Assembly: GCF_004920405.1 (NCBI RefSeq)
Contig: NZ_RFLV01000001.1
Coordinates: 1,302,001-1,366,000, forward strand
Origin: Pseudomonas leptonychotis
GTDB taxonomy: Bacteria > Pseudomonadota > Gammaproteobacteria > Pseudomonadales > Pseudomonadaceae
Direction: 5' to 3'
Length of the DNA stretch: 64,000 nucleotides
The position numbers and the translations under genes were made by a program. How positions within the stretch are numbered: position 1 is the first letter of the stretch; each line of letters starts with the position of its first letter. The notes beneath the pieces were generated by a model, which searched no databases, had not been told where the DNA came from, and saw only the letters and a list, made by a program, of their open reading frames with translations. This document shows positions 30,172-39,250 of this stretch, piece after piece.

Positions 30172-30835
30172 GCTTAGGCACAGCCTCCCTCTCCTTCTGC
30201 TGATCGCTTGCGCCGACCTGGCCTACGCCGATTGCGACTACGACGACTTCCCACGCATGGACGGCATGCTGGTCAGCAGCTTGGGCGCCAGCGTGCAGTG
30301 GAACCACACGCCGTTGCAGGGCCGGACGTTTCGGGTGTCCGCCACCGTCCCCCGGGTGAAAGAGTTCTACGCGCAGCAGTGGCCGGACGAGGTGGATTTC
30401 AGCGAGTTCAACGACTGGGATCAGATCCTGCACATCAACGAACGCTGCATCATGATGATTCAGGTCAAAGCCCAAAACGACCGCTACAGCTACGGCCGTA
30501 TGAGCATCACCAATCCGCCGCAAGCAGGCGGCGGTGGTGAGCCGCTGGGCAGTGGCATGCCCGTGCCGCCCGATGCCCAGGTCATCAGTGACATGCGCAG
30601 CGACGATGTGATTCGCGAAGGGCGCCTGGTGCTGATTCTCAATGATGAAAACATCCACGCCACACGCGCCTGGTACGAAGCCGAGTTGCTCAACCAGGAC
30701 TGGAACCTGGACCACCGCAGCCAGCAGGACAACGCCGTGGTGCTCACCTACAGCAAAGGCCGCGAGCTGATGACGGTGGGCCTGCTGCGCCACGCCGACA
30801 AGACTCAAGTGCTGCTCAACCGGATGGACCGCTGA
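30164..30835 (+). CDS. Exported protein of unknown function in the Tad-type locus
   Basis: I do not recognise this 223-residue protein. It has a signal peptide (MIKLRHSLPLLLLIACADLAYA, cleavage near residue 22) and a soluble mature part with no further membrane segment. It contains DCDYDDFPRMDGM at the mature N-terminus, a glycine-rich linker NPPQAGGGGEPLG near residue 125, and two halves that each look alpha/beta. The start overlaps the previous gene by 8 nt and the stop overlaps the next start (TGATG), so it belongs to the pilus operon and probably acts in the periplasm. Confidence 0.75.
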   Translation: MIKLRHSLPLLLLIACADLAYADCDYDDFPRMDGMLVSSLGASVQWNHTPLQGRTFRVSATVPRVKEFYAQQWPDEVDFSEFNDWDQILHINERCIMMIQVKAQNDRYSYGRMSITNPPQAGGGGEPLGSGMPVPPDAQVISDMRSDDVIREGRLVLILNDENIHATRAWYEAELLNQDWNLDHRSQQDNAVVLTYSKGRELMTVGLLRHADKTQVLLNRMDR

Positions 30836-31827
30836 TGAGAAAGCAACTAGGTCAATCCATGACCGAGTACCTGGTTGTGGTTGGCGTCACCGGTGCCGGC
30901 CTGCTGGCTGCCACCACGGATGTCAGCACGCTGTTCGACAACGTGCACAGAAGCTACAGCACGCAGTCGAGTGAAATGAACAAGGTGCAGATCTACAGCA
31001 ACCCCAAGCTGCAAGAGAATGAAGTCGTACGCGAAGATGACGACGGCGATGACGGTGACGAGATACCCGACACCCCGGTACCGGTGCCCGAGCAAGAATA
31101 CCCACCCTATGTTGAAAGCGTGTTCGACGAGTTCGGCAACCTCATCGGCCATGTCAAAGATGGCTACCTGGTAGATGCCAGTGGTGAGCAAGTCGCCACC
31201 TGCATGCGCTCCGCCAGCGGCCAGTGCAGCTTTGTCGATGCCAATGGTAATAGCGTGTTCAACGGCGCCACGACCAACACCGAATGGGTGGATGACGATG
31301 GCAAGCCGCTGGTTTTACAAGCCCTGACCAACAGCGCCGGGCAGGTGATGGGCTTCGCCTACCTGTACAACGGGCAGTATCACGACGCCAGCTCGCGCAA
31401 ACGCTTGGACCCACAACCCAGCGGGCTCACGGCGGTGCAAACACGCCCGGTAATCAGCTACGACGAGAATGGCAAAGCCTTTTCTTCCGGGCATGCCATC
31501 AACGGACTGATCTATTCCGAGAGCTCCATCCTGTCCCCCGCTAGCAAAGACTTCAGCACCGCGATGGTCGCCAGCGGCGAGTTGGTCGGTGTTGTTTACC
31601 AGACAGCGCCCAGCGCCACCTGGAGCCAATACAAACCCTGTCTGGTAGTGCCCTTGGGTTGGAGCAATAACTTCAGCTCCGGCGCCACGCTGTCGGCGGG
31701 CGAAGCCGCGAACTTCAACAATCCGCAACCCGGAACCAGTTACATCAACAGCGAAGCCGCCAGTTGCCAAGGCCGCAGTACGGTCACGCTCGATTCCTCG
31801 ACCAGCAATTGGACGTTAAGCAAATAA
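30835..31827 (+). CDS. Large Flp-like pseudopilin with repeat-bearing ectodomain
   Basis: The 330-residue protein opens MRKQLGQSMTEYLVVVGVTG: cleavage after Gly6 gives Glu at +5 and Tyr at +6, so it carries a true Flp prepilin signal and helix. Unlike Flp (under 100 residues) it continues with an acidic linker (about 66-80, mostly D/E), a Pro-rich strip and an ectodomain. Residues 97-145 hold three DxxGxx(I/V)-type units (FDEFGNLIGHV, VDASGEQV, VDANGNSVF) like those in the CpaB extension encoded next. Four cysteines lie in the ectodomain. It could be a minor or tip pilin; that is inference. Confidence 0.78.
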   Translation: MRKQLGQSMTEYLVVVGVTGAGLLAATTDVSTLFDNVHRSYSTQSSEMNKVQIYSNPKLQENEVVREDDDGDDGDEIPDTPVPVPEQEYPPYVESVFDEFGNLIGHVKDGYLVDASGEQVATCMRSASGQCSFVDANGNSVFNGATTNTEWVDDDGKPLVLQALTNSAGQVMGFAYLYNGQYHDASSRKRLDPQPSGLTAVQTRPVISYDENGKAFSSGHAINGLIYSESSILSPASKDFSTAMVASGELVGVVYQTAPSATWSQYKPCLVVPLGWSNNFSSGATLSAGEAANFNNPQPGTSYINSEAASCQGRSTVTLDSSTSNWTLSK

Positions 31828-31917
31828 ACCACACGCACGCGGCCAACACAGGCGCGGCCAACACTTACAACACTTCACGCCACCCTCTACGGGCATTGGC
31901 GAGTGACGGGGAGCGAC

Positions 31918-33954
31918 ATGTCATCTGTTTCAGGAAGAAAGCTGCTGATCATTGCCATCGTCTGTGGCGTGCTCGCAGCCTTGCTAGGTTGGGCCTACCT
32001 CAAGGCCAAGGAGTCTCAGTACAAGGCCGCGTACCGCCCGGTTAACCAGGTCAAGGTTTCGGTGGTGGTGCCCAACACGGATATTGGCAAGTCGCAAACG
32101 CTCAAGCGCGAGCAGGTTGCCGCGCTCGATGTGCCCAGTGAGTACCTGCCGTCCAACGCCGTAATGGCCGAAGATTGGGCACGCCTGGAAGGCCGCATGA
32201 CCATCATGGCGCTGCAAAAAGGCCGCCCCATCACTTGGGATGCGATTGAGCAGGACGGCGTGTCACGCTTTTCAGAAAACGTCGAGCTGGGCAAGCGGGT
32301 CAAGACGGTCAAAGTCAGCAAGATCAACTCCTTCGACGGCATGCTGCGCCCCGGTGATCGGATTGACCTGTTAGGTAGTTTTTCCGCCGGTGACGTGGGC
32401 CTGCAACAGCAACCCAATTATGCCGACGACGTGGTCATGACCGTGCTCGAAGACATTGCCGTGCTGGCCGCCGGCCGCGAAGACGCCAACGGTCACAAGT
32501 ACGAGAACTACTACGACCGTACGACGCCAGACGGCTTCAACATGAACTTCTCCACCCTCTCGCTGATGCTCACCCCAGCCCAAGTGGCACGGGTCGAGCT
32601 GGCGGAGAAATCCGGCGAATTGGTGGCCGTATTACGCCACCCCAAAGACACCAGCAGCGCCAGCCTCGGCCAGACCACTGTCTCCAGCCTGCTCGACCCG
32701 CCACCGGTGGAAACCGTTGATGTGGTGCTGGCTGCCGATGGCACGCTGCTCGGCCGTATCGTTGGCGACAATATCGTGGATGCCAATGGCCGCATCATCG
32801 GCAAGATCGTCGACGGCCAGGCCGTCGACCTCGACGGCAAAGTCATGGGTCGTATCGTGCGCGGACTGTCACCGGACGATCCCATTCTGCGCATGCATGA
32901 AAAAGCCACGGTTGTACGTGACGCCCAAGGCAACGTGATTGGCCGGGTGGTCGACGGCAAGGTGGTCGACGCCAATGGCAATGCCATCGGCACCGTCGTC
33001 GACGGCAAAGCCGTGGGCCTTGATGGCGCCAGCCTGGGCCGGGTGGAAAAAGACGTAGCCCTGGATGCCGATGGCCGAGTGATCGACATGCGCAGCTCGC
33101 AGGTGCAGACCCAAGCGCCGAGTCAAGGTAGCGAACGCCAGGTGGTACTCGACGCTAATGGCAAGGTGATTGGCTACCGCGTCGGTGACGAAATCCACGA
33201 TGCCAACGGCAAGGTGATTGGCTATTACCGCGATGGCAAAGCTTATGACCTGGACGGCAAGCTGCTCGGCGAAGTCAGCACCGCGCTGCTGGATGCCAAC
33301 AACAATGTCATCGGCACATTGGGCGAGGTGGCTCGCGATGCCGACGGCAACGTCATCGGCACCATCAAGGACGGCAAGCTGGTGGATAGCACCGGCAAAG
33401 TGCTGGGCACGGTCAAGGACGGCCAAGTCGTGGACAGTACCGGCAAGGTCATCGGCAAGGTTGAGCAAGCCATGCTCGATAAGGACGGCAAGGTCATCGC
33501 CGATGCAGCCCGCGTGGTACGTGATGCGGACGGCAAGGTGATCGGCAGCGTAGTCGGCGACGACATCATCGATGCCCAAGGCCGCAAAGTCGGCACGGTC
33601 AAAGATGGTCAGATCCGTGACTTGTCCGGCCAAGGCATTGAGGGGGCCAATGTCAGCCTGCAACAAGATGTCGCTCAGGTTGTACGCGATGCGAACGGCA
33701 ACATCATCGGCACCCGGCGCGGCAACACCGTGTATGGCACCGATGGCAAGGTGCTCGGCACGCTGGTCGACGGCAAGATCGTCGACGCCAACGGCAACGT
33801 GTTGTACCGCGGTGTGACCGTGGGCCTGGAGCCGCCACAAGCCAACGCACCGAATAAAAATAAACGTAGCGATGCCTCGCGGATGATCCAGTTCATCCCC
33901 GGCGGCACGGGTAAGGACGGGGTCATCCCGATTCAAACGCTGCGGCTGGAATAA
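31918..33954 (+). CDS. rcpC: CpaB/RcpC pilus assembly protein with long repeat extension
   Basis: The 678-residue protein has an N-terminal membrane helix (about 9-30, LLIIAIVCGVLAALLGWAYL), a SAF domain (about 40-115) and the RcpC/CpaB domain (about 120-255, ending in LMLTPAQVARVELAEKSGELVAVLR). Canonical relatives end around residue 260-300. Here residues 271-633 consist of about 20 copies of a 16-residue unit, consensus xDxxGxVIGxVxDGKx, interrupted twice by short spacers, then a basic tail. GGGGAG 4 nt before the ATG at 31918 fixes the start. RcpC normally sits in the periplasm beside the secretin. Confidence 0.88.
   Translation: MSSVSGRKLLIIAIVCGVLAALLGWAYLKAKESQYKAAYRPVNQVKVSVVVPNTDIGKSQTLKREQVAALDVPSEYLPSNAVMAEDWARLEGRMTIMALQKGRPITWDAIEQDGVSRFSENVELGKRVKTVKVSKINSFDGMLRPGDRIDLLGSFSAGDVGLQQQPNYADDVVMTVLEDIAVLAAGREDANGHKYENYYDRTTPDGFNMNFSTLSLMLTPAQVARVELAEKSGELVAVLRHPKDTSSASLGQTTVSSLLDPPPVETVDVVLAADGTLLGRIVGDNIVDANGRIIGKIVDGQAVDLDGKVMGRIVRGLSPDDPILRMHEKATVVRDAQGNVIGRVVDGKVVDANGNAIGTVVDGKAVGLDGASLGRVEKDVALDADGRVIDMRSSQVQTQAPSQGSERQVVLDANGKVIGYRVGDEIHDANGKVIGYYRDGKAYDLDGKLLGEVSTALLDANNNVIGTLGEVARDADGNVIGTIKDGKLVDSTGKVLGTVKDGQVVDSTGKVIGKVEQAMLDKDGKVIADAARVVRDADGKVIGSVVGDDIIDAQGRKVGTVKDGQIRDLSGQGIEGANVSLQQDVAQVVRDANGNIIGTRRGNTVYGTDGKVLGTLVDGKIVDANGNVLYRGVTVGLEPPQANAPNKNKRSDASRMIQFIPGGTGKDGVIPIQTLRLE
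32728..33816 (+). repeat. Coding tandem repeat, about 20 units of 48 bp
   Basis: Degenerate 48-bp units encode DxxGxxIGxVxDGxx modules of the CpaB/RcpC protein. Units such as VDANGNAIGTVVDGKA, RDADGNVIGTIKDGKL and VDSTGKVLGTVKDGQV are close to each other in protein and DNA (frequent GGCAAGGT-ATCGGC strings), pointing to expansion by duplication or recombination. Two breaks in register occur, near residues 303-316 and 387-402. Confidence 0.85.
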
Positions 33955-34020: not shown

Positions 34021-35514
34021 ATGATCATTCGACGTGTATTGGAGATTCTCTGCGCCATGAGTCTGGGTGCCGCCGCCCAAGCCGCTGATATCCCATCAGC
34101 CATCGTGCTGTATGACGGTGATGTCAGCGTGCTCAATGCACCCGGCGTCGAGCGAGTGGCTGTGGGTAACGTTGAAATCATTAGCGCCACCATGCTCAAG
34201 AACGAGGAAGTGGTGATCACCGCCCAGCAGCCTGGTGAAACCACCGTGCAAATCTGGTTCGACGATGACACTCGCCAACAAGTGAGCGTGGTGGTCGCCA
34301 AGGCCAATGGCTATCGCCAGATCAGTGAGCTCAAGGCATTACTGTCCGACATCCCAGGACTGAAAATACGCACCGTAGGCCGCCAAGTTGTTCTGGATGG
34401 TCGCCTCAGTGAGGAGTACCTCACCCGCGTTAAGGAAGCTGCGAAGTTCTACGACAACGTGCTGGTACTTGCTGAAGAACAGAGCGGCGCCGCCACCAAG
34501 GCTGACTCGGCCCAGGTACTGGCTGAAGTTCAGGCCATGCTTGGACAAATTCCGGGAATCAAGATCAAAGCGATAGGTCGTCAGATCGTCATTGACGGCG
34601 ACCTCAATCAGGTCGATATCACCCGTATTGACCTGCTCAAGGAGCGCTACCCGGATGTGATGGTGTTGGCCCAGCCAATGTCTGAGTTCCTCGCACCGAT
34701 GATCTACTTCGATGTGCGCATCACTGAGTTTGCCAAAGACGATGTAGAAGAACTGGGGGTTAACTGGAGCACCAGCATCAATGGCCCGACCCTGGCATTT
34801 AATGCTGATGGCGGGACCAACAATCTATACCGAGGTCAATTCGACAGTGCAAGTGGCACCTTCGAAACGCTGAACTCCGTTGTCGGCGGCGCTGGTTCGC
34901 ATGCCTACTGGGGGATTGCCAGTGAGCTGACCTCACGCATCAACCTGCTGGAGAAAAACGGCTCGGCATTGACCCTAGCGTCGCCACGCCTCGGCGCGCG
35001 CAGCGGCGGCAAAGCCGAACTGACCGTGGGTGGTCAGGTTCCGGTGGTCACCAGCAGCATCAACGGCCCGTCTGTCGAGTACAAAGACTATGGCGTGCTG
35101 CTCAACATCGCGCCACAACTGTACGGCACAGACCAAGTTTCCACCCACGTACTGGTCGAGATCAGTCAGGTCGACAAAGCCAACCAGATCGGCGAATACC
35201 CGGCCTTCAAAACCCGCCGCACCGAGAACGAAGTGCAGCTGAAAGTCGGCGAAACCTTGGTGCTCTCGGGTCTGGTGGCCGAGGACAGTCAGTCCACAGT
35301 TGAGGGCATTGTCTGGCTCATGGATCTGCCCATTATTGGTTCGCTTTTTCGCAACAAGAGCGCTAAGGGCAACCGCACCGAACTGGTGATTTTCATCACC
35401 CCTCGCTTGATGACCAATGGCCCGGACTCGCCAAGCGCACAAGCGCAGCTGCGCAGTGACAAGATGATCGAGAAGTATCAAAAATCCTTCGGCACCATTG
35501 AGCTTATCGACTGA
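34021..35514 (+). CDS. rcpA: Tad-type outer-membrane secretin (CpaC/RcpA)
   Basis: The 497-residue protein has a signal peptide (cleavage after AAAQA, about residue 21), the pilus-secretin N-terminal domain (IVLYDGDVSVLNAPGVERVAVGN), two BON-like modules each with IPG[LI]KI-x-R(T/A)-x-GRQ and then the secretin core (about 230-475: LASPRLGARSGGKAELTVGGQVPV, EVQLKVGETLVLSGLV, LPIIGSLFRNKS, ELVIFITPRLM). It forms the outer-membrane ring for the pilus. GGGG upstream serves as ribosome site. Confidence 0.93.
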   Translation: MIIRRVLEILCAMSLGAAAQAADIPSAIVLYDGDVSVLNAPGVERVAVGNVEIISATMLKNEEVVITAQQPGETTVQIWFDDDTRQQVSVVVAKANGYRQISELKALLSDIPGLKIRTVGRQVVLDGRLSEEYLTRVKEAAKFYDNVLVLAEEQSGAATKADSAQVLAEVQAMLGQIPGIKIKAIGRQIVIDGDLNQVDITRIDLLKERYPDVMVLAQPMSEFLAPMIYFDVRITEFAKDDVEELGVNWSTSINGPTLAFNADGGTNNLYRGQFDSASGTFETLNSVVGGAGSHAYWGIASELTSRINLLEKNGSALTLASPRLGARSGGKAELTVGGQVPVVTSSINGPSVEYKDYGVLLNIAPQLYGTDQVSTHVLVEISQVDKANQIGEYPAFKTRRTENEVQLKVGETLVLSGLVAEDSQSTVEGIVWLMDLPIIGSLFRNKSAKGNRTELVIFITPRLMTNGPDSPSAQAQLRSDKMIEKYQKSFGTIELID

Positions 35515-35521
35515 GGCACCC

Positions 35522-37168
35522 ATGTTCGAGATCGAAATCACCTACAAGGACGGCAAGCCGGTCGACAAGCTGACCTGCACCAGCGCCTCCTGCGAACTGG
35601 GTAAAGCTCGCACCGGGCTGGTGCGCTTGCGCGGCTGGACGGTTGCGCCTATCCATGCGCGTATCGAGCAATCGCTGGCCGGGTTATTCGTCGAAGATGT
35701 CAGCCGTGGTTACGAAGTGCGGGTCAACGACAAGCCGATTAGCCGTCACGGCCCGCTAGCACCGGAAGACGCCATCGCCATCGGTGGTTACCTGATCCGG
35801 GTCCACGCGCAAACCTTCCCCGTCAGCGACGACATGCCGGAAGTCGTGCTGGCGCCTGATACGCCAGAAATTAATAACGACAGCCACTTGGCTTACATGG
35901 AGTGGTCGCAGTTTATCCAGGCCGAGCTGTTCCGAGCGCTCGACCTGCGCCGCATGAACCTCGACAGCATGGGCCCGGATGAGGTTCGGGTGATTCTCTC
36001 CGAGCTGATCGACGGACTGATTGAACCAGTGCTCAGCCGCCTGCCAGCAAGCGTCAAAACCGAGGTGCTGCGCAAAATCGTGTTGGATGAGGCCGTCGGC
36101 CTCGGCCCACTGGAAGACCTGCTGGCCGACCGAAGCGTCAGCGAAATCATGGTCAACGCCCATGACGACATTTATGTCGAACGCAGCGGTCGTCTTGAGA
36201 AAACCCCGATCAACTTCAGCTCGAATGCGGCGGTACTGTCGATCATCGAGCGGATCATTTCGCCCCTCGGCCGGCGTATCGATGAAAGCTCGCCCATGGT
36301 CGATGCGCGCCTGAAAGATGGCTCGCGGGTTAACGCCATCATTCCACCGCTGGCATTGCGCGGCCCCTGCCTGACGATACGAAAATTCTCAGAGAAAAAG
36401 CTCACCACGGATGATCTGCTCACATACGGCTCGATCAACGAGCCGATGGTGGAGTTTCTGCGCACCGCCGTTGAACAGCGCATGAACATCGTGGTGTCCG
36501 GCGGTACCGGTTCGGGCAAGACCACCCTGCTGAATATTCTCTCCAACTTCATCCCGATAGAAGAACGCGTGGTTACCATCGAGGATGCGGCAGAGCTGAA
36601 GCTGGTGCAGCCGCACGTGGTGTCACTGGAAGCACGCCCATCAAACATGGAGGGCAAGGGCCAGGTAACCATCCGTGACTTGGTGCGTAACTGCCTACGG
36701 ATGCGCCCCGACCGTATCGTAGTCGGCGAGTGCCGGGGCGGTGAAGCGCTGGACATGCTGCAGGCGATGAACACCGGCCACGATGGTTCGCTGACCACCG
36801 GCCACGCCAACACCCCGCGCGACATGATGCGACGCCTTGAAGTGATGGTACTGATGGCCGGCATGGATCTGCCGGTACAGGCGATTCGTGAACAGATCGC
36901 CTCAGCGGTGCAGATTGTCGTGCAGCAAACACGCTTCGGTGATGGTTCACGGCGTATTACCAGCATCACCGAAATCACCGGTATGGAACAGAGCACTATT
37001 CTGCTCAACGAGATCTTCAACTACCAACAGCAAGGCTTCGACGAGAACGGGCGGGTCAAAGGCTTTTACCAGGCCACTGGGCAGGTTCCCGAGTTCTACG
37101 AAGCGCTGAGCAGCCGCGGGATCAACGTCAACATGGATATCTTCCGGCCGGCGGCCCTGCATGTCTGA
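35522..37168 (+). CDS. tadA: TadA/CpaF-type secretion ATPase with N-terminal FHA domain
   Basis: The 548-residue ATPase drives pilus assembly. Residues about 1-100 read as a forkhead-associated domain (CELGKARTGLVRLRG, IHARIE, VEDVSRGYEVRVNDKP), which would bind phosphothreonine. The CpaF core follows with VSEIMVNAHDDIYVERSGRLEK, Walker A VVSGGTGSGKTTLLN (about residue 324) and the Walker B region DRIVVGECRGGEALDML (about 400), plus TTGHANTPRDMMRRLE. GAGG sets the ATG at 35522. It follows the secretin by 7 nt; no TadZ/CpaE gene lies between, where it usually sits. Confidence 0.93.
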   Translation: MFEIEITYKDGKPVDKLTCTSASCELGKARTGLVRLRGWTVAPIHARIEQSLAGLFVEDVSRGYEVRVNDKPISRHGPLAPEDAIAIGGYLIRVHAQTFPVSDDMPEVVLAPDTPEINNDSHLAYMEWSQFIQAELFRALDLRRMNLDSMGPDEVRVILSELIDGLIEPVLSRLPASVKTEVLRKIVLDEAVGLGPLEDLLADRSVSEIMVNAHDDIYVERSGRLEKTPINFSSNAAVLSIIERIISPLGRRIDESSPMVDARLKDGSRVNAIIPPLALRGPCLTIRKFSEKKLTTDDLLTYGSINEPMVEFLRTAVEQRMNIVVSGGTGSGKTTLLNILSNFIPIEERVVTIEDAAELKLVQPHVVSLEARPSNMEGKGQVTIRDLVRNCLRMRPDRIVVGECRGGEALDMLQAMNTGHDGSLTTGHANTPRDMMRRLEVMVLMAGMDLPVQAIREQIASAVQIVVQQTRFGDGSRRITSITEITGMEQSTILLNEIFNYQQQGFDENGRVKGFYQATGQVPEFYEALSSRGINVNMDIFRPAALHV

Positions 37169-38027: not shown

Positions 38028-38906
38028 ATGAACGAAATCCTTGTTCTGCTCAGTGGCGCCAGCCTGGGCATCACCGTTACCTGCAGCCTGCTACTGTTGA
38101 TCTCGCTGCTGTCCCTGCTGCCGGAAGAAAACCGCGCTTACATGGACCCGGTACCCGGCTGGATTCGGCCGGTCTGGCCATTGGTGCGTTTGGTTAGCCA
38201 TCATTTCTGCAGCAACCTGTCGCCGCGACTTATGGACTGGCTGGATATCCGCCTGCAGAAAACCGGCGCCCTGTATGTGCTGACCGCTGAAGACTTCCTG
38301 GCGCTGTGCATCACCATGGCCCTGCTGTTCCCGATTCTGGCCATTTTGCCCATGGCCAGCGGCCAGAGCGGCATTCTCTGGTCCGTGGTCTTACTAATGG
38401 CCGGCATGGGCGCCGCCCTACCGGTGATGTGGATCAGTGATACGCACAAACGCCGTGACCGCGACATCGTGCGCAACCTGCCGGTATTCCTCGAATACCT
38501 GACCATGTGCGTGGATGCCGGTTTGAACTTCCTCGGTGCCCTGCAGCAGGCCGTCGACAAAGGTCCGAACGGCGCGATGAAGAACGAGTTTCGCATCGTG
38601 CTGCGCGATATCCGCTCCGGTTTGCCGCGCGCCGAAGCGCTGTCGCGCATGGAGCAACGGGTCAATCTCAAGGACGTGACGACCTTCGTGCGCTCGGTGA
38701 TTCAAGCGGAAAAAATGGGCAGCAGCCTGCGCAACACCTTGCAGATCCAAGCTCAGCAGCGTCTTGAAGAACGCTTCCAGCGCGCAGAGAAAACCGCCAT
38801 GCAGGCGCCGGTCAAGCTGGTCATTCCCTTGATCATGTTTATCTTCCCGCTGACCTTCGTGATCCTGCTGTTCCCCATCGTAGTCAAGTTCATGGGCGAG
38901 ACATGA
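38028..38906 (+). CDS. tadC: TadC inner-membrane platform protein
   Basis: The 292-residue protein is the second F-domain platform subunit. It has N-terminal membrane segments, the conserved NLPVFLEYLTMCVDAGLNF region and RSVIQAEKMGSSLRNTLQIQA, and ends in a strong hydrophobic pair. Tad systems typically encode TadB and TadC side by side, as here. Its last bases overlap the DUF192 gene (ATGA). Confidence 0.92.
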   Translation: MNEILVLLSGASLGITVTCSLLLLISLLSLLPEENRAYMDPVPGWIRPVWPLVRLVSHHFCSNLSPRLMDWLDIRLQKTGALYVLTAEDFLALCITMALLFPILAILPMASGQSGILWSVVLLMAGMGAALPVMWISDTHKRRDRDIVRNLPVFLEYLTMCVDAGLNFLGALQQAVDKGPNGAMKNEFRIVLRDIRSGLPRAEALSRMEQRVNLKDVTTFVRSVIQAEKMGSSLRNTLQIQAQQRLEERFQRAEKTAMQAPVKLVIPLIMFIFPLTFVILLFPIVVKFMGET

Positions 38907-39250
38907 TTCCCTGCCAAGTAACCCGCGCCGATGGCAGCCGTCAGACGCTGACGCTTGAGCAGGCTGACCGTCTGTGGCCACGCCTCAAGGGGCTGCTCGG
39001 CTGGCGCGGCCTGGCACCCGCCCAGGGCATTTGGCTGCAACCTTGCAACTCAGTGCACTGCCTGTTCATGGCCTTCAGCATCGACGTGCTCTACCTCGAC
39101 TCTGCGCAACGCATCATCGCCATCCGCGCAGACCTCAAACCATGGCGCATGAGTCTGTGCTGGCCAGCCAAAAGTGTGATCGAGCTGGCCGCCGGCGAAT
39201 GCCAACGGCTCGGCCTCACCATCGGAGATCAGATTCAATGCGAGTCCTGA
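38903..39250 (+). CDS. DUF192 family protein embedded in the Tad-type operon
   Basis: The 115-residue protein matches DUF192: RLKGLLGWRGLAPAQGIWLQPCNSVHCLFMAFSIDVLYLD and the end block VIELAAGECQRLGLTIGDQI. The fold is a small beta-barrel-like domain of unknown function. No signal peptide is seen, so it should be cytoplasmic. Its start overlaps tadC by 4 nt and its end overlaps the lipoprotein gene by 13 nt, so it is translated as part of the pilus operon. Confidence 0.88.
   Translation: MIPCQVTRADGSRQTLTLEQADRLWPRLKGLLGWRGLAPAQGIWLQPCNSVHCLFMAFSIDVLYLDSAQRIIAIRADLKPWRMSLCWPAKSVIELAAGECQRLGLTIGDQIQCES

Follow-up and report, generated by a model that had tools for sequence, protein, structure and literature searches.

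A CpaB/RcpC protein of the Tad pilus in Pseudomonas leptonychotis with a beta-flower repeat array ahead of its conserved C-terminal tail

The gene at positions 31918–33954 of the window (the whole 64,000-nucleotide stretch of DNA analysed here) encodes a Tad-pilus alignment protein, CpaB/RcpC, that carries a long array of beta-flower-type repeats, which sits after an L3-like stretch and before a tail of 23 residues. We lean slightly toward a reading in which the array is a periplasmic arm that carries a docking tail, i.e., a spacer or tether that captures the secretin and contributes to a sleeve around the pilus. For this reading, the present analysis supplies the array, the prediction that it is ordered, its location ahead of a conserved tail, and its age and clade; the ring, the docking and the topology are taken from published work on PAO1 RcpC.

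The protein, its locus and its repeat array

The identity of the product as CpaB/RcpC, already proposed by a sequence-only reading of this DNA, is confirmed by profile searches against TIGR03177 (E 4.2e-35; 121.3 bits, cut-off 71) and the Pfam family PF16976 (E 1.1e-15; 58 bits, cut-off 28.8). The predicted fold of D1-D2 matches solved RcpC, the best Foldseek match (E 4.8e-10) being 9gzr, the cryo-EM structure of P. aeruginosa RcpC (PMC12307814). In a genome-wide search, the product was the sole PF16976 protein and also the sole PF21785 protein found. Its ATG at 31918 is the start in most aligned homologues, the list of open reading frames offers a GTG at 31903, and the frame stops at 33954. 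The gene lies in a Tad neighbourhood, in which pilin-like and TadG/TadE-like genes upstream are followed by cpaB and the genes for the secretin, FHA-TadA, TadB and TadC (Table 1). No TadZ/CpaE gene was noticed near tadA in the list of open reading frames. A 115-residue frame at 38903–39250, which we take to resemble DUF192, sits between TadC and a TPR-like protein.

The pilin-like protein encoded directly upstream of cpaB has the motif GQSMTEYL near its start, and its DxxG petals resemble those of the CpaB array. Its homologues in five other loci (L002, L003, L004, L073 and L074) likewise carry DxxG petals. Pfam gives no Bflower match for the window's pilin-like protein, and the match is below cut-off in two of four homologues.

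The published order of parts in PAO1 RcpC is a membrane helix, D1, D2, a linker termed L3, which the twelve-subunit ring requires, and a C-terminal hairpin (PMC12307814). The window protein shares with it the membrane helix, D1, D2, a linker, a C-terminal tail and a gene that adjoins that of the secretin. Judged by its position, the linker at residues 246–262 is the presumed counterpart of L3. The two differ in length: PAO1 RcpC has 303 residues and no array, whereas the window protein has about 373 additional residues ahead of its tail.

Table 1. Features of the cpaB/rcpC gene and of neighbouring genes (positions in the window)
Feature	Position	Strand	Description and basis
cpaB/rcpC gene with beta-flower array	31918..33954	+	678 residues; TIGR03177, PF16976, Foldseek match to RcpC
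N-terminal membrane helix	31933..32031	+	Residues 6–38; helix in model; PAO1 RcpC topology (PMC12307814)
D1, SAF-like domain	32050..32253	+	Residues 45–112
D2, RcpC domain PF16976	32266..32637	+	Residues 117–240; Pfam
L3-like linker	32653..32703	+	Residues 246–262; after D2; three-residue helical turn, low-confidence stretch of model
Beta-flower repeat array	32704..33822	+	Residues 263–635; Pfam, lag identities, pLDDT
Variable linker	33823..33882	+	Residues 636–655; mean identity to query 0.263
Conserved C-terminal tail, proposed secretin-docking hairpin	33883..33951	+	Residues 656–678; conservation, motif counts
Secretin RcpA/CpaC, proposed partner	34021..35514	+	PF00263 8.2e-38, PF13629 5.6e-11
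TadA ATPase with N-terminal FHA-like domain	35498..37168	+	T2SSE 5.3e-64; FHA 0.002, below cut-off
Pilin-like protein, few DxxG petals in later part	30835..31827	+	DxxG petals

The array comprises about 21 DxxG units of 16 residues, which are grouped into six superrepeats of about 62 residues (degenerate tips were counted by eye); an earlier count of about 20 copies was therefore close. Residues 255–635 contain 17 strict D..G..[IVLM] motifs, compared with 2.1 on average and at most 8 in 2000 shuffles of the same residues. The self-identity of the array is 23.3% at a lag of 16 residues, 19.4% at a lag of 62 and 21.0% at a lag of 124, and the latter two values point to a four-unit superrepeat that the sequence-only reading had missed. 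That reading did recognise the array itself, at residues 271–633, and we place the limits somewhat wider, at 263–635. In the best blocks the hairpin tips are spaced at 16, 16, 15 and 15 residues (one degenerate tip was added by eye). At the DNA level the repeat is diverged: for the whole window, Tandem Repeats Finder returns one row, with 2.0 copies of 15 bases at 32946–32975.

In Pfam, the array matches PF21785 (2.5e-33), PF21784 (1.7e-32) and DUF3659 (3.8e-15). Whole-protein scores on the two beta-flower profiles are 114.7 bits (cut-off 38) and 112.6 bits (cut-off 25), with six stretches each; the best single PF21785 stretch scores 35.3 bits, or 59.7 together with its neighbours. The repeat itself is therefore of a known kind. 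According to the accessible part of the paper that named it, the beta-flower fold was recognised from AlphaFold models, and has hairpin petals, 4-, 5- or 6-fold symmetry and a [DNEQ]xxG motif at the tips (PMC10584680). The array resembles PF21784/PF21785 and DUF3659 in its scores above cut-off and in the presence of [DNEQ]xxG at its hairpin tips. It deviates in other respects: in the same paper, the fold is described as having a network of aromatic residues and, in many cases, a helix at its centre, whereas the array has few aromatic residues (6 of 373, with a net charge of −10) and no helix in the model of two superrepeats. In addition, its 16-residue units stand within 62-residue superrepeats, each of which might close as a four-petal flower.

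Predicted fold and the question of calcium

The full-length model has a mean pLDDT of 73.5 and a pTM of 0.41. Its values over the array are 64–88 per ten residues, and residues 642–678, which include the tail, are below 50. A piece of two superrepeats (residues 404–532) gives a more confident model (pLDDT 92.2; pTM 0.74), which contains strands only, with no helix, and takes the form of a hairpin meander; the 62-residue period is a feature of the sequence. On these models the array is predicted to be ordered and to be made of short beta-hairpins. It had been suggested that the repeats form either a beta-solenoid rod or a series of small beta hairpins, and that a prediction of disorder would speak against both; the outcome is a prediction of order, behind which either a solenoid or a chain of small beta-flowers may stand. 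No good match to the two-superrepeat fold was found among solved structures, and no beta-flower is named in the match lists.

Calcium binding at DxDG sites, proposed on the same occasion, is unlikely from the composition of the repeats. DxDG accounts for only 435 of 3007 matches to a loose tip pattern among the 120 listed homologues, which include the window's own protein, and the pattern also catches frames other than the tips. RTX-like calcium repeats have conserved acidic ligands at fixed positions, and in the array the Asp at the third position is not conserved. The Pfam match list of the product contains no RTX or calcium family. Calcium sites in the array were rejected on this composition.

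Distribution, age and length of the array

Long CpaB proteins are a minority in most samples. Within the genus, CpaB is present in 45 of 59 genomes, and three of the 48 matches are long (681, 708 and 720 residues, the window included), all three with arrays. At the level of the class, CpaB was found in 54 of 369 genomes, and 13 of these (12 fetched loci and the window) have DG-repeat insertions, with genomes whose frames are shorter than about 350 residues judged partly by length alone. In a sample of the order, frames of more than 450 residues occur in 2 of 80 CpaB-bearing genomes. In the order of one distant carrier (G177), all 17 of the CpaB-bearing genomes, from a sample of 53, have long frames, with 12 to 30 DG motifs as counted by script. 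Named holders among the protein matches are Ectopseudomonas mendocina, Pseudomonas dryadis, Stutzerimonas nitrititolerans, Aquipseudomonas and Gilvimarinus. The sequence-only reading would have been weakened by finding the repeat in ordinary RcpC across many genera, and the result falls between: several genera have it, in a minority of the RcpC proteins sampled.

The insertions range from three units (L086) and seven (L078) to about 30 (L082). When ten class-sample carriers were scanned, only L078 passed the flower cut-offs and L086 came near one. DUF3659 is above cut-off in six (L077–L080, L082 and L084) and below it in L088, while L076 and L081 match neither. Flower arrays above cut-off were confirmed in L003, L073 and L173. 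The distant insertions are therefore best described as DG repeats at the equivalent site, only some of which are shown to be flowers. Of the 37 loci with an array, some of which are cut by contig ends, 32 have a relative of the FHA part of TadA, and the array-bearing CpaB proteins belong to a Tad subtype that mostly has an FHA-TadA. In the open-licence literature, judged partly by title, we found no published account of a repeat array on CpaB, and we found no paper there on DUF3659 or on beta-flowers in a pilus context.

A tree of 47 CpaB cores was built with the array columns excluded and two outgroups added. On this tree the label “DG array” needs two changes, compared with a mean of 11.6 in shuffles (0 of 500 as low), and the insertion therefore marks nearly one clade. 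Here, an array means at least three DG motifs together with an extension of 120 residues or more, with DG insertions of different unit types pooled; L092 (three motifs, 99 residues) was scored as arrayless because its extension is shorter than 120 residues. Left out of the tree were L193, L207, L004 and L089 (duplicates, near-duplicates or a fused frame), as well as rows that lack FHA or p223 neighbours. The second change is L090, a very long branch that lies inside the array rows. Support for the fork that unites the array rows with L090 is moderate (88/85), and one change suffices in 1% of bootstrap trees. The sister clades have CpaB without an array.

Between species, orthologous superrepeats are 0.50–0.91 identical, and different superrepeats 0.27–0.46. 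In five comparisons, dN/dS is 0.14–0.28 for the array and 0.07–0.15 for D1-D2; the comparisons are not independent (three are with near kin of each other), and the synonymous sites are far diverged. These comparisons indicate an old array whose superrepeats have kept their order and which is under purifying selection.

Array lengths, which could be parsed for 115 of 120 homologues, bunch near 312, 367, 414–428, 475, 522 and 570 residues, so that the steps amount to about three to four petals. The idea that repeat number varies between strains finds no support in comparisons between species. The listed closest full-length homologues (P0003–P0010, 99 to 74% identity) are all 677–681 residues long, each superrepeat is much nearer to its orthologue than to its neighbours, and lengths differ between deeper lineages. 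Rapid variation by slippage is likewise unsupported, given the diverged DNA repeat, the steady lengths of homologues and the orthologous superrepeats.

The secretin next to the window's cpaB has an extra stretch between its pilus-N and secretin domains, which by eye looks like a doubled segment. The spacing between the two domains is 198 residues, compared with 131–145 or 77–83 in other loci of the subtype, and the subtype loci fall into classes of 77–83, 131–145 and 186–201 residues. Spacing and CpaB extension length have a rank correlation of 0.62 over 41 loci. A kinship-aware test on the tree gave one independent pair on the starred branches (two on all branches), and so no support. In the order of G177, extensions of 261–453 residues occur at a spacing of 136–145, and extensions of 284–502 at 198–201. 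We claim no link between the two lengths, because the correlation rests on kinship and the classes overlap in this order, and a scaling of array length to secretin length was rejected.

The C-terminal tail and possible roles of the array

The tail is as well conserved as D2, even though the array and a poorly conserved linker lie between them. Over 48 aligned homologues, the mean identity to the window protein is 0.789 for the tail, 0.783 for D2, 0.579 for the array and 0.263 for the linker at residues 636–655. A tail motif is present in 31 of 35 array-bearing CpaB proteins (2.2 when the same residues are shuffled); the four others are two array frames cut by a contig end (L081 and L214) and two near misses (L205 and L208), and L193 and L207 were dropped from the count. 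Arrayless CpaB proteins have the motif in 29 of 34 cases overall (shuffles 0.9), made up of 8 of 12 of the same subtype (shuffles 0.3) and 21 of 22 other short proteins (shuffles 0.6). The arrayless subtype rows that fail are a near miss (L187) and three proteins that end otherwise (L085, L090 and L091), although L090 has a like stretch further inside the protein.

A link to PAO1 is provided by L023, a short CpaB of the window's genus, whose alignment with PAO1 RcpC (4e-43) extends as far as the tail motif of L023. The motif maps close to position 259 of the solved chain, which has 280 residues, and thus to the C-terminal region. At the aligned place PAO1 RcpC has a weaker form, which would fail the strict motif. 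In PAO1, removal of the C-terminal hairpin abolishes Tad function, and the hairpin is modelled on the N-domain of the secretin, although RcpC that lacks only the hairpin still co-purifies with the secretin N-domain (PMC12307814). In Caulobacter, the predicted packing partner of the CpaB hairpin is CpaI, a bridge protein, and not the secretin (PMC13170226). Matched by position, the tail of the array protein may be the same docking element as the PAO1 hairpin; we go no further than inferring this, because PAO1 has only the weaker form of the motif. The protein had been thought perhaps to reach through the secretin, but the tail after the array appears to match a hairpin that is modelled on the secretin N-domain (PMC12307814).

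In the tether reading, then, the array of petals would stand between the ring-forming part (D1, D2 and L3) and the secretin-docking tail. Each subunit of the ring would bear an ordered arm, about 370 residues long and tipped by the docking tail, with twelve arms per ring if assembly follows PAO1 RcpC. The arms would keep the tail at a distance from the ring, would capture and hold the secretin, and might jointly make a sleeve or cage around the pilus as it crosses the periplasm. The function as arm, tether and sleeve is a proposal drawn from this arrangement of parts. In its favour are the RcpC core, the predicted order of the array, the conserved tail beyond it, the loss of Tad function without the hairpin in PAO1, purifying selection on the array, the two changes on the tree and a similar placement of flower arrays in DotG-like proteins. 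One point against it is space: the PAO1 RcpA:RcpC complex, which has no array, already takes up 21 nm of the 24 nm periplasm in the published model (PMC12307814), and twelve straight rods would therefore misfit unless they fold back, splay or replace the contact between D2 and the secretin. Further points against the tether are the Caulobacter prediction, the co-purification that survives loss of the PAO1 hairpin, the failure of PAO1 RcpC and of 4 of 12 arrayless subtype proteins to show the strict tail motif, the low pLDDT of the tail, array lengths that do not follow secretin length once kinship is considered, and the arrayless sister clades. An earlier description of the array as a periplasmic rod or ruler is plausible as far as a spacer is concerned, but the strict ruler is weakened, and a role as a straight ruler is doubtful.

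The main rival to the tether is that the array is a binding surface and not a spacer, with peptidoglycan, a wall enzyme, the passing pilus or minor pilins as its target, and with length serving avidity. We consider this unlikely, though clearly worth keeping in mind. RcpC has been proposed as a likely recruiter of wall enzymes (PMC12307814), and petals of a similar kind occur in the pilin-like protein whose gene directly precedes cpaB. Against it, an array with so few aromatic residues and a net negative charge would be poor at binding glycans by the usual stacking, and the number of units varies from 3 to about 30. An improbable alternative is near-neutral expansion of an easily duplicated hairpin within a tolerant linker, with no specific role. 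The short forms in sister clades, the steps in length between lineages and the faster evolution of the array relative to D1-D2 would all fit such expansion, but the array dN/dS of 0.14–0.28, the closeness of orthologous superrepeats, the long frames with DG motifs in 17 of 17 CpaB-bearing genomes of one order sample and a parallel placement in DotG-like proteins (below) argue against it. A calcium-stabilised beta-solenoid rod or molecular ruler is very improbable, since the strict periodicity, the Asp-rich turns and the ordered beta prediction in its favour are outweighed by the scarcity of DxDG, by Pfam matches to beta-flower and DUF3659 families and, for the ruler, by the span already covered by the arrayless PAO1 complex.

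Similar arrays occur outside of CpaB. A search with the array alone returned 112 proteins, 92 of them with PF16976; of the remaining 20, 18 are on contigs shorter than 5 kb. Some of these short-contig matches are pieces, and some (P0172, P0173 and P0191) are another family with a membrane stretch. In P0172, P0173, P0185 and P0191, the flower array follows a membrane stretch at the N-terminus and a domain that resembles choice-of-anchor D (below cut-off). Another match, P0187, combines a membrane stretch at its N-terminus (by eye) with a flower array at about 161–340 and a TrbI domain at 460–635, and it matches the DotG/IcmE model at 1.3e-109, which is below the cut-off of that model. A search from P0187 found 455 proteins, itself included, and flower and TrbI occur together in all of the best 120 of 455; the search words came partly from the array, and the frequency of arrays among DotG proteins is therefore not given by this search. 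Some of the listed DotG/IcmE-like flower proteins (P0187 and P0192–P0310) are named from Rickettsiella and Aquirickettsiella.

The TrbI domain works at the outer membrane in relatives of DotG. P0187 is thus like the window protein in having an inner-membrane anchor, a flower array and an outer-membrane domain in that order, although the machine (type IVB secretion) and the end domains are unrelated, and the order of parts is taken from P0187 only. For the Legionella apparatus, one paper reports that tomography puts the penta-peptide repeats, which it discusses together with DotG, in the stalk (PMC7511231). A broader and tentative idea, which we think unlikely to hold, is that beta-flower arrays are a general part of trans-envelope machines, Tad CpaB and DotG-like proteins among them, in which they would act as interchangeable periplasmic arms, set between a ring or anchor of the inner membrane and a docking domain of the outer one, with at least 12 arms forming a lantern-like sleeve that guides the pilus or cargo past the wall.

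The array deserves attention for its position before a presumed docking tail, for its clade and for its DotG-like parallel. The structure of the Tad alignment ring dates only from 2025 and comes from a protein that lacks an array; should the proposed function of the arm be right, a whole Tad clade would bridge the periplasm in a way unlike that of the model system. The accessible part of the paper that named the beta-flower offers no tested function for it (PMC10584680), and the parallel with type IVB secretion would give the fold a role. The testable rule that would follow is that repeat arms serve to connect inner-membrane with outer-membrane complexes.
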